A DNA stretch of 35,835 nucleotides, taken from contig JAUYSH010000075.1 of NCBI GenBank assembly GCA_030696455.1, forward strand, positions 1 through 35,835, in the 5' to 3' direction. The position numbers and the translations under genes were made by a program. The notes below the pieces were generated by a model, which was given only the letters and a program-made list of their open reading frames with translations, searched no databases and was not told the DNA's origin. This DNA is from Elusimicrobiota bacterium. Its GTDB lineage: Bacteria > Elusimicrobiota > Elusimicrobia > UBA1565 > UBA9628. Positions 13,811 to 15,740 of the stretch are shown piece by piece. Numbering within the stretch: the first letter of the stretch is position 1; every line of letters starts with the position of its first letter.

Positions 13811-14056
13811 TCAGCCGCACTTGTTGGGCCACACGCACGTCGTGATCTCTCCCGAGGCCGCGATGACGGGCGCCGGGGCGGCCGAGGTCGCGGGAGCGAC
13901 CGTGCAGGTCTTGGGCCACACGCAGGGCTGGAACTGGGCCACGACCGGAGCCGGGGCGGTCTTGCACGTGTTGGGCCACACGCAGGGGCGGAACTGGGCG
14001 GTGGCCTGGGGGGCCGGCGTCGCCGTAAGGAACGTCGCGAGGATCAAGGTCATCAT
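13811..14056 (-). CDS. Exported CVWPN-repeat small protein A
   Basis: This protein has 81 residues from the ATG at 14056, chosen because AAGGAG lies 8 bases upstream; an in-frame ATG at 14062 is too close to it. A hydrophobic N-terminus (MMTLILATFL) resembles a short signal sequence. The rest is three copies of a unit, AQFRPCVWPNTC, AQFQPCVWPKTC and EITTCVWPNKCG, joined by Pro/Ala linkers (KTAPAPVV, APATSAAPAP). Cysteines at 25/31, 45/51 and 74/80 form three C-x5-C pairs, suited to disulfide loops or metal/cofactor binding outside the cytoplasm. I do not recognise a family. Two paralogues follow upstream (62 and 84 residues) with the same unit and the same promoter layout. Other possibilities include a modified-peptide precursor, though no modifying enzyme is nearby. 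Confidence 0.75.
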   Translation of the reverse strand: MMTLILATFLTATPAPQATAQFRPCVWPNTCKTAPAPVVAQFQPCVWPKTCTVAPATSAAPAPVIAASGEITTCVWPNKCG

Positions 14057-14088
14057 GGTCATGTCTCCTTACGAAAGATTGTAAGGAC

Positions 14089-14167
14089 AGGATATCGCTT
14101 CCCCGCGGAGCCGCCGAGGACGCGGGTCAAATCGAAACCTTGATCTCCGTCACTTGATCGCGCTCAA
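14089..14167 (-). promoter_or_regulatory. FNR-type promoter region of small-protein gene A
   Basis: Read on the minus strand: box TTGAGCGCGATCAA (14167-14154), directly followed by GTGACGGAGATCAA (14153-14140), 9 bases, a degenerate box TTGACCCGCGTCCT (14130-14117), then TATCCT (14094-14089). With a start at 14082 the box centres are -78.5, -64.5 and -41.5, as in the two paralogues. TACAAT (14083-14078) is an alternative -10, 11 bases (one helical turn) downstream. Confidence 0.6.
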
Positions 14168-14203
14168 CGATGAGCGTTCCCTTTATCCCCCATCGAGCCT
14201 CCA

Positions 14204-14221
14204 ACTGTTGTCGACAACAGT
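14204..14221. repeat. 18-bp perfect palindrome
   Basis: ACTGTTGTCGACAACAGT reads the same on both strands. It lies between the terminator of gene B and the promoter of gene A. The inner 16 bases have the CTGT-N8-ACAG format of gammaproteobacterial LexA boxes. No SOS-type gene is next to it, so its function is unknown. Confidence 0.6.
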
Positions 14222-14246
14222 CGGCTCGCGGGGTGTGCATAAGAAA

Positions 14247-14272
14247 AGAGCCTCCGAGGGGTCGGAGGCTCT
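14247..14272 (-). terminator. Intrinsic terminator of small-protein gene B
   Basis: An 11-bp perfect stem (AGAGCCTCCGA and TCGGAGGCTCT) has a 4-base loop, GGGG on the plus strand. On the minus strand the hairpin is followed by TTTCTTATG, a U-rich tail. Confidence 0.8.
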
Positions 14273-14298
14273 CGTGCGGCTGCCGGTTCGAGGCCGGT

Positions 14299-14487
14299 TC
14301 AGAGGGCGACGGTCTTCGGGGCGTCCTTCTTGACGCACTTGTTGGGCCAGACGCAGGTCGTGAACTGCGCGATCACGGGGGCCGGCGCGGTCTTGCAAGT
14401 GTTGGGCCACACGCACGGGCGGAACTGGGCCGTCTCGGTCGCGGGCTGGGCGTTGAACAGCGAGAGCGTCAAGATGAGGTTGATCAT
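14299..14487 (-). CDS. Exported CVWPN-repeat small protein B
   Basis: This 62-residue protein starts at the ATG at 14487 (MINLILTLSLFN). The start has no Shine-Dalgarno site; a TACACT box ends six bases upstream, implying a leaderless message. After a short hydrophobic N-terminus come two repeat units, AQFRPCVWPNTC and AQFTTCVWPNKC, joined by KTAPAPVI, and a basic tail (VKKDAPKTVAL). Cysteines are 25/31 and 45/51. The final unit in all three paralogues begins TTC and has a Lys before the last Cys, while earlier units are FRPC or FQPC, so the two unit types may have different roles. Its N-terminus is nearly identical to paralogue C (MINLILTLSL). Function unknown. It has its own terminator and promoter, so the three genes are separately controlled. 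Confidence 0.75.
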   Translation of the reverse strand: MINLILTLSLFNAQPATETAQFRPCVWPNTCKTAPAPVIAQFTTCVWPNKCVKKDAPKTVAL

Positions 14488-14493
14488 TGAGAC

Positions 14494-14572
14494 AGTGTAC
14501 CGCGGCCGCGGAAATCGGCCTAGGATGGCGGTCAACGCTCCCGTTTGATGCCCGTCATTAATGCTCCCGCAA
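14494..14572 (-). promoter_or_regulatory. FNR-type promoter region of small-protein gene B
   Basis: On the minus strand ATGACGGGCATCAA (14558-14545) is centred at -64.5 from the predicted start at 14487. TTGACCGCCATCCT (14535-14522) is centred at -41.5, and TACACT (14499-14494) is the -10 box. The distal box at 14572-14559 is degenerate. There is no -35 box, as expected for activation from -41.5. Confidence 0.6.
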
Positions 14573-14613
14573 CCGGGCCGTCATGGGTCGAACATAGGCG
14601 GACATAAAATGAA

Positions 14614-14639
14614 GAAGACCCCGAGGGGTCGGGGTCTTC
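14614..14639 (-). terminator. Intrinsic terminator of small-protein gene C
   Basis: An 11-bp perfect stem (GAAGACCCCGA and TCGGGGTCTTC) has a loop that is GGGG on the plus strand. On the minus strand it is followed by TTCATTTTATG. The layout matches the terminator of gene B, although the outer stem differs in sequence. Confidence 0.8.
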
Positions 14640-14671
14640 GCACGGCGCCGGTTCGAGGCCGGTTTAAAGGT

Positions 14672-14926
14672 TCAGGCTTTCTTGCCGCACTTGCGCGGGT
14701 ACACGCAGGTGGTGAACTGCGCGACCTCGACGACCGGCGCGGTCTGGGTCGCGGGAGCGACCCGGCAGACGTTGGGCCACACGCAAGGCCGGAACTGAGC
14801 GACCGTCACGGGGGCCGGAGCGGTCTTGCAGACGTTGGGCCACACGCAGGGCCGGAACTGGGCCGTCTGGGCCGCCGGAGCGGCGTTGAAGGAGGAGAGC
14901 GAGAGCGTCAGAATCAGGTTGATCAT
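14672..14926 (-). CDS. Exported CVWPN-repeat small protein C
   Basis: This 84-residue protein starts at the ATG at 14926, six bases after a TATACT box, so it is probably leaderless. The short hydrophobic N-terminus is MINLILTLSLSSF. Three units follow: AQFRPCVWPNVC, AQFRPCVWPNVC and AQFTTCVYPRKCG, with Pro/Ala/Val linkers and a KKA tail. Cysteine pairs are 27/33, 48/54 and 74/80. The last unit has Tyr for Trp and Arg for Asn, so the tryptophan is not absolutely required there. The N-terminus lacks the usual positive charges of a signal peptide, so membrane retention or cleavage after the Q-T-A is uncertain. It lies directly downstream of the Crp/Fnr gene on the same strand. Function unknown. 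Confidence 0.75.
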   Translation of the reverse strand: MINLILTLSLSSFNAAPAAQTAQFRPCVWPNVCKTAPAPVTVAQFRPCVWPNVCRVAPATQTAPVVEVAQFTTCVYPRKCGKKA

Positions 14927-14932
14927 GCATAC

Positions 14933-15011
14933 AGTATACCGGCCGCATGATTTATCTCCGATGAGTCCGGACAACCCGCGCGCTTGATGGATATCAATTG
15001 ATCTGGGTCAA
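14933..15011 (-). promoter_or_regulatory. FNR-type promoter region of small-protein gene C
   Basis: On the minus strand TTGACCCAGATCAA (15011-14998) abuts TTGATATCCATCAA (14997-14984), a perfect TTGAT-N4-ATCAA box. TTGTCCGGACTCAT (14974-14961) and TATACT (14938-14933) follow. Centres relative to a start at 14926 are -78.5, -64.5 and -41.5. The region lies just after the stop of the regulator gene. Confidence 0.7.
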
Positions 15012-15032: not shown

Positions 15033-15740
15033 TTAGGACGCAGAGCCCGCGAGGGCCCGGAGGCGTTCTTCGCTGAGGATCAGCAGGTCCTTTTCCTTCT
15101 TGCGCAGCACGGCGCGCTCCTCGAAGTCCTTGAGCAGGCGCACCGTGGTCTCGATCGTGAGCCCGGCCATCTCGGCGAGGTCGCGGCGCTTGATGCCGGC
15201 GACGATCGCGTAGGGCTTCTTGGGGACCATCATGCGGATCAAGGTGTCGGCCAGGCGGCCGCGCGCGGGCTTGAAGGCGATGTCGCGCGCCTTGTTCTCG
15301 CCCCGGCGGACGTCCTTGGCGAGCTCCTTGAGGAGCGCGTGCGAGGCGGGCGGATACTTCGCGAGGAAGGCGTAGAAGGTGTTCTTGTCGATCATCGACA
15401 CGATGCTGGGCTCGAGGGCCTCGCCGGTGGCGGTATAGGCGCCTTCGTCGGAGAGCAAGGTCACGTGCCCGAGGAGGTCGCCCGGAGACTCGACGCGCGT
15501 CGTGAGCTGCTGGCCGGTGCGGCTCGATTTGTAGACCTTCACCTTGCCGGTGCAGACGACGTAGACGCCCTGGGGCATGGCGCCTTCGTGGAAGATCACC
15601 TCGCCGCGCTTATGGGGGTGGGCGAGACGTATCTCGCGCCAGGCTTTTTTGGACTCCTTCGTGCCGAGGAGCTCGTAAAAGCAGTTTTTCTTATAAGGGC
15701 ACCAATCGCAATTGGGCGCGTCTCGCTTCGAATAGGCCAT
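15033..15740 (-). CDS. Crp/Fnr-family regulator with FNR-type cysteine cluster
   Basis: This 235-residue cytoplasmic regulator has a CX2CX5C cluster at Cys11, Cys14 and Cys20 (CDWCPYKKNC), the same spacing as the three N-terminal [4Fe-4S] ligands of E. coli FNR. A cyclic-nucleotide-binding-like beta barrel follows (RGEVIFHEGAMPQGVYVVC, SPGDLLGHV), then a dimer helix and a winged helix with recognition helix GLTIETTVRLLKDF. The Glu and Arg that read TTGAT in FNR are kept; the FNR Ser is Val here. The fourth FNR cysteine (Cys122) aligns with Ser, but Cys63 is a possible substitute. It probably senses oxygen, NO or redox state. Three small-protein genes downstream have matching boxes. The start at 15740 has TATAAT seven bases upstream. 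Confidence 0.85.
   Translation of the reverse strand: MAYSKRDAPNCDWCPYKKNCFYELLGTKESKKAWREIRLAHPHKRGEVIFHEGAMPQGVYVVCTGKVKVYKSSRTGQQLTTRVESPGDLLGHVTLLSDEGAYTATGEALEPSIVSMIDKNTFYAFLAKYPPASHALLKELAKDVRRGENKARDIAFKPARGRLADTLIRMMVPKKPYAIVAGIKRRDLAEMAGLTIETTVRLLKDFEERAVLRKKEKDLLILSEERLRALAGSAS

Follow-up and report, generated by a model that had tools for sequence, protein, structure and literature searches.

A Crp/Fnr-type regulator of Elusimicrobiota with a candidate cluster ligand on another barrel strand

As an O2 sensor, FNR is a textbook case, and its site consists of four cysteines at fixed positions. The window analyzed here, i.e., the whole stretch of 35,835 nucleotides of contig JAUYSH010000075.1 from an Elusimicrobiota bacterium (GCA_030696455.1), encodes a Crp/Fnr-type regulator that has the three N-terminal cysteines of FNR and a serine in the column of the fourth. 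Could such a protein hold a cluster, which residue would complete the site, and which genes would it control? A bacterial class whose regulators have a ligand on another strand, with relatives holding both positions or a third one, would constitute a natural mutation series bearing on ligand geometry in relation to O2 lability and on the path of the signal to the DNA-binding domain. In the literature searched, which covered few subscription journals, we noticed neither a report of an FNR whose ligand is displaced in this way nor any text on FNR in the Elusimicrobiota phylum.

The cysteines of the regulator and their structural context

The gene of the regulator lies on the reverse strand, from 15740 to 15033 (stop codon included), and its open reading frame translates into 235 aa. 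The protein matched the Pfam families cNMP_binding (PF00027, 72.4 bits for a cut-off of 27.5, 3e-20) and HTH_Crp_2 (PF13545, 43.6 bits for a cut-off of 27, 3e-11). Hence, having both the barrel and the Crp-type winged helix, it is a member of the Crp/Fnr superfamily. Its best NCBIfam model was that of the E. coli-type Fnr (NF008365), at 59.3 bits for a cut-off of 228. We found 13 close relatives in genome contigs, all of them from MAGs, 11 labeled Elusimicrobia or Elusimicrobiota and two labeled only "bacterium".

We used FNR of E. coli K-12 (NP_415850) as the reference for alignment. Its Cys20, Cys23 and Cys29 correspond to Cys11 (codon 15710-15708), Cys14 (15701-15699) and Cys20 (15683-15681) of the regulator, and the CX2CX5C loop (15681..15710, reverse strand) has the spacing that a first-pass annotation of this DNA had described. 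The alignment also bore out the serine which that annotation had placed at the column of Cys122 (Ser115, codon 15396..15398, reverse strand), and it matched Arg72 of FNR with Cys63 (codon 15552..15554, reverse strand), the proposed fourth ligand. In the recognition helix (LTIETTVRLL, residues 194-203, 15132..15161, reverse strand), Glu209, Ser212 and Arg213 of FNR correspond to Glu197, Val200 and Arg201. The helix had indeed been described as keeping Glu and Arg and having Val for Ser, and each of the three residues is found in all 87 members of the clade described below. Finally, Asp154 of FNR aligns with Gly147, in a column occupied among the 87 by G, L, M, I, A or V, and never by Asp.

Cys11, Cys14, Cys20 and Cys63 are the only cysteines of the regulator, and none is found beyond residue 63. 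This leads us to reject a Bacillus-type C-terminal three-cysteine cluster, and the annotation's comparison of a three-cysteine site with that of Bacillus Fnr finds no support. The latter also belongs to the Crp/Fnr proteins and has an atypical cluster site, but in B. subtilis the cluster is bound by three cysteines near the C-terminus and by Asp141 (excerpt of PMC3520743). Compared with FNR of E. coli and A. fischeri, where Cys20/23/29/122 hold a [4Fe-4S] cluster, the regulator has the same fold, CX2CX5C spacing and helix Glu and Arg, and the TTGA-N6-TCAA boxes that may be its sites have a spacing that would put them at the class II position. It differs by the Ser in the column of the fourth ligand, by Cys63 for Arg72, Val for Ser212 and Gly for Asp154, by an identity of around 24%, and by its separate branch in the tree. 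It is probably FNR-like in its working, yet outside FNR in the strict sense: it has the three N-terminal cysteines but lacks Cys122, Ser212 of the Glu209/Ser212/Arg213 helix, and the Asp154 switch.

From 14 close orthologues, only a low-quality model was obtained (pLDDT 64.5). With a second alignment of 18 sequences, which included five diverse Crp/Fnr proteins of viral contigs, AlphaFold2 reached a pLDDT of 83.3 and a pTM of 0.75. In this model Cys63 lies in a strand formed by residues 58-64, in agreement with its earlier placement in a barrel strand, and Ser115 in a strand formed by residues 112-118. We take these to be the third and eighth strands of the jelly roll, neighbors in one sheet. 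The best matches by VIA-align were to A. fischeri holo-FNR (Z from 25.4 to 25.2, 225 residues, rmsd 2.9), with model residues 6-235 superposed on residues 17-247. GlxR, which has no cluster, was almost equal (Z 24.9), and Z was above 20 for many Crp/Fnr members. The mean pLDDT of the loop (residues 11-20) was 68, and the N-terminal 38 residues searched alone against the PDB gave no meaningful match.

Conservation of Cys63 among the relatives

To assess the conservation of these residues, we searched 340 genomes of the phylum for relatives, obtained a match in 176, and fetched 80 further stretches. From the part of the listed matches that was fetched we kept 119 distinct hits; after exclusion of the copy of the window and of E. 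coli FNR, 117 distinct relatives remained. Of the 117, 87 combine Cys20 with a residue other than Cys at position 115 (85 Ser, two Ala), and all 87 have Cys11, Cys14 and Cys63. The choice of the 87 was made without using column 63, and at the remaining positions, starting from residue 24, Cys occupies 0.5% of the cells; the contrast between 87/87 and this background rules out chance conservation of Cys63. Since identity to the query falls to around 23-35% in family f8, the conservation of this residue extends beyond recent kinship. Within the clade, L051 alone combines Cys63 with Cys115.

We then considered the 115 rows having Cys11 and Cys14, a set to which a Bernardetia protein, E. coli FNR and one FNR of a viral contig were added. 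Cys20 is found in 99 of them: 86 have Cys63 only, 10 have Cys63 and Cys115, two have Cys115 only (these are FNRs of the E. coli type), and one has Cys61 and Cys63. The 16 rows lacking Cys20 comprise nine with Cys63 and Cys115, six with Cys61 and Cys115 (four of which also have Cys23), and one with Cys115 only. Hence, the barrel cysteine is never missing: all 115 rows have a Cys at 61, 63 or 115, and Cys115 is missing only where both Cys20 and Cys63 are present. The uncharacterized group formed by Bernardetia WP_338790804 and the Elusimicrobia proteins L109, L117, L120, L124 and L126 resembles the regulator in having CX2C and a cysteine in the same strand, but this cysteine is Cys61, Cys115 is kept and Cys20 is absent.

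A tree of 86 thinned rows was built with residues 1-26, 61-63 and 115 omitted; it was a quick tree, without bootstraps, where many forks stay open. The 52 clade rows group together (SH-aLRT 97), whereas E. coli FNR falls with FixK-like sequences. The presence of Cys63 in every relative that has Cys20 and lacks Cys115, together with their grouping in one clade, supports the earlier suggestion that Cys63 replaces the missing ligand.

Outside these genomes, viral contigs were searched with an orthologue and with alignment A4, and neither query retrieved a relative. Two pattern scans of the viral contigs gave 103 loci, four of them with a usable Crp/Fnr protein, and one further sequence was taken from a query with E. 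coli FNR. Among plasmids, 740 records matched, of which two were read; among the best 30 of the 740, the lowest E-value was that of the Bernardetia protein, which has CX2C, Cys61 and Cys115. Among the genome loci, L110, L112 and L113 harbor tandem pairs of Crp/Fnr paralogues with around 10 cysteines each, including Cys11/14/16/20/63/115.

Boxes beside the regulator and across the genus

The first-pass annotation had placed the gene directly before micro-protein genes and had mentioned boxes downstream. There are indeed two perfect TTGAY-N4-RTCAA boxes between the regulator and the first micro-protein, all on the reverse strand: TTGACCCAGATCAA (14998..15011), in a place where relatives also have a box after the gene, and TTGATATCCATCAA (14984..14997), which abuts it. 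A weaker stretch, TTGTCCGGACTCAT (14961..14974), may be a further box, 22 nt before a -10-like TATACT (14933..14938), itself 6 nt before the ATG at 14926. Micro-protein 1 (14672..14926, reverse strand) has 84 aa from this ATG, a signal-peptide-like start, and the motifs CVWPNVC and CVYPRKC. On the same strand, a pattern scan found a box with one mismatch (14545..14558) before micro-protein 2 (14299..14487, an open reading frame of 62 aa from ATG) and two abutting boxes with one mismatch each (14140..14167) before micro-protein 3 (13811..14062, an open reading frame of 83 aa). The second gene appears to have the same upstream layout as the first, with TTGACCGCCATCCT in the position of the weak stretch. 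In both, the distance to the -10 element is 45 nt for the box and 22 nt for the weaker box-like stretch. When one mismatch is allowed, the window contains six box matches, whereas 100 shuffles gave 0.84 on average and always fewer than six. The two abutting boxes and the weak third one at class II spacing (14961-15011) make up an unusual, putative triple-site promoter, also seen in several relatives.

The association extends to the relatives. Including the copy of the window there are 88 clade loci, 84 of them with at least 300 nt downstream. A small protein with C-x-[WY]-P-x-x-C comes next in 25 of these 84, and all 25 have a TTGA-N6-TCAA box there, against four of the 59 loci without a micro-protein downstream. 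A box upstream of the regulator gene is found in only three of 88 rows; autoregulation is thus not a general feature. The three tandem micro-proteins of the window (13811-14926, reverse strand) look exported, repeat the motifs CVWPNxC and CVYPRKC, and matched no Pfam or NCBIfam family. The motif has many matches in other genomes of the order. As a guess from the motif, the Cx5C pairs could bind a metal or have a redox role.

In the genome of the window, TTGAYNNNNRTCAA occurs at 18 sites, against four of the reversed pattern. Three boxes have TANNNT exactly 22 nt beyond, for a mean of 0.32 per spacing, and these three precede sdhC, korA and PEPCK. Across 19 genomes of the genus we counted, by a hand sum, 41 box-N22-TANNNT sites against one in the control, and 36 of the 41 precede PEPCK, sdhC or korA. 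The 38 sites outside the genome of the window comprise 16 before PEPCK, 14 before sdhC, three before korA, one before a multihaem cytochrome c gene, one before an enoyl reductase gene, and three matching no query. We also counted by gene, taking genes whether or not a box had already been seen, and korA only when upstream sequence was available. A perfect TTGA-N6-TCAA box precedes 15/15 korA, where the -10 element is 22-24 nt from the box, 17/18 PEPCK and 16/19 sdh/frdC (sdhC). The box-less promoters are those of three sdhC and one PEPCK, and all four retain the -10 element. The pattern alone is not specific to the regulator, since genus g28 still has 14 box-N22-TANNNT sites against three controls (hand count), and its only match to the protein, a weak one, is in G042.

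The fifth base of the TTGA half-site is C in 35, T in 14 and A in two of 51 rows, among which two are not real boxes and one repeats a gene. The annotation was therefore right to expect a TTGA half-site with a relaxed last base; its attribution of this to Val200 may not hold. In FNR, the residue opposite the first T of the half-site is Ser212. This T is kept in 50 of the 51 rows, so Val evidently still permits it. If transcription starts around 7 nt after the -10 element, the center of the box is at -41.5, the class II position, and the predicted sites before korA, PEPCK and sdhC, read from the DNA, have such class II-like spacing. According to an excerpt of PMC3688515, of the 23 E. coli promoters of known start that FNR activates directly, 19 have this position. 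We observed -10 elements 5-7 nt before the starts of the regulator (15740), the micro-proteins (14926, 14487), PEPCK and sdhC, and at loci L155 and L150; they are often extended (TGnTAGAAT). This proximity to the start codons suggests that the transcripts of the regulator, micro-proteins, PEPCK and sdhC may be leaderless.

A putative anaerobic activator and its alternatives

From the computed residues, conservation, fold, boxes and box spacing, we infer a mechanism in which, without O2, a putative [4Fe-4S] cluster would be held by the Cys11/14/20 loop and by Cys63, which, from its barrel strand, would take the place of the missing ligand of the Cys122 type. As a dimer on TTGAY-N4-RTCAA, the holo-protein would act at class II promoters and activate the genes of 2-oxoacid:ferredoxin oxidoreductase, PEP carboxykinase and succinate dehydrogenase/fumarate reductase, as well as those of the neighboring exported micro-proteins. 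Exposure to O2 would destroy the cluster and turn the regulator off. We consider such an anaerobic FNR-type activator, with ligands C11/C14/C20/C63, to be probable. It is supported by the invariance of the four cysteines in 87/87 while position 115 is Ser or Ala, by the monophyly of the clade in a tree without the cysteine columns, by the superposition of model residues 6-235 on A. fischeri holo-FNR (Z 25.4), and by the 41 to 1 excess of boxes at N22 spacing together with the box counts by gene and by micro-protein. What counts against it is the low pLDDT of the loop, the score of the cluster-less GlxR, the boxes of genome G202 (see below), the four box-less promoters, the sites of g28, and the Cys115 of L051.

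The same cysteines might be used otherwise. A cluster held by Cys11/14/20 only, with its fourth iron on Ser115, another residue or water, and with Cys63 kept for another function, would fit the Ser115 of 85 of the 87 clade members. It also has parallels in B. subtilis Fnr, with its Asp ligand (PMC3520743, in excerpt), and in the FNR of Acidithiobacillus ferrooxidans, which has three of the four standard cysteines and for which a Ser ligand is proposed (excerpt of PMC6659574). The latter protein also lacks Asp154 (it has Ala), but it is the reverse case, Cys29 being lost and Cys122 kept there, while the regulator kept the former and lost the latter. However, Cys63 is conserved just as strictly as Cys11/14/20, although its column holds Arg in E. 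coli FNR and various other residues in CRP-type proteins. As two of the 87 moreover have Ala rather than Ser at 115, we regard a three-cysteine cluster as improbable. A site without iron-sulfur, where the four cysteines bind zinc or act as a thiol/disulfide switch, seems unlikely too. Four invariant cysteines would suit Zn equally, and in CprK, which also belongs to the Crp/Fnr proteins, exposure to air leads to a Cys11-Cys200' disulfide, although the physiological role of this bond is doubted (excerpt of PMC12937710). Yet a disulfide pair needs fewer than four cysteines, the CX2CX5C spacing is exactly that of FNR, holo-FNR gives the top structural matches, and the korA and sdh/frd targets suit an O2 switch.

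A further question is which protein uses the boxes, as the genome of the window has five Crp-type HTH genes. A paralogue lacking cysteines and with a DNR-like helix (G000:C52:11496-12191) has a box and a gene for a multihaem cytochrome c next to it, and its helix keeps Glu/Ser/Arg. If the boxes belonged to it, the regulator would have other sites, and this would account for G202 (91% complete), where boxes are present and no orthologue of the regulator was found. Against this, 18 of the 19 genomes of the genus have the orthologue, and in G199 (75% complete), where PEPCK and sdhC have boxes, it is the sole Crp-type HTH found. This favours the window protein as the probable binder. The boxes directly after the regulator gene in 25/25 micro-protein loci, against 4/59 otherwise, also argue against the paralogue, to which we give little credence. 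At L149:2997-4759, a box and a gene for a multihaem cytochrome c come after a cysteine-free paralogue. As CX2C, Cys63 and Cys115 are all retained in its sister L111, this paralogue has apparently lost a cluster site.

Returning to the FNR-type activator with Cys63 as ligand, its off-switch may differ from that of E. coli. There, Asp154 forces the monomers apart upon cluster loss and the D154A variant is permanently dimeric (excerpt of PMC4214427). No clade member has an equivalent of Asp154; hence, the output step may be conformational instead of monomerisation. A broader scenario would combine a ligand that moved between strands (from Cys115 to Cys63, with holders of both and with Cys61 side branches) and a permanently dimeric, conformational FNR driving a class-wide anaerobic programme that includes the CxWPxxC micro-proteins. 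We put it forward as tentative and somewhat doubtful.

The candidate targets are korA (2-oxoacid:ferredoxin oxidoreductase, an O2-sensitive enzyme type), PEPCK and the membrane subunit of succinate dehydrogenase/fumarate reductase. They fit a reductive branch from PEP to 2-oxoglutarate operating without O2, if the flux runs in this direction. With the exported micro-proteins, korA, PEPCK and sdh/frd would give a testable anaerobic regulon for the Elusimicrobia, for which we saw none in print within the literature searched. The genome of the window also has three COX1-family matches, two of them above 430 bits, which suggests that the organism may respire O2 as well. At L145:4432, a box lies beside a TauD-like dioxygenase frame and may belong to the paralogue; a COX1-family gene nearby, a 775-aa open frame, is possibly a nitric oxide reductase.
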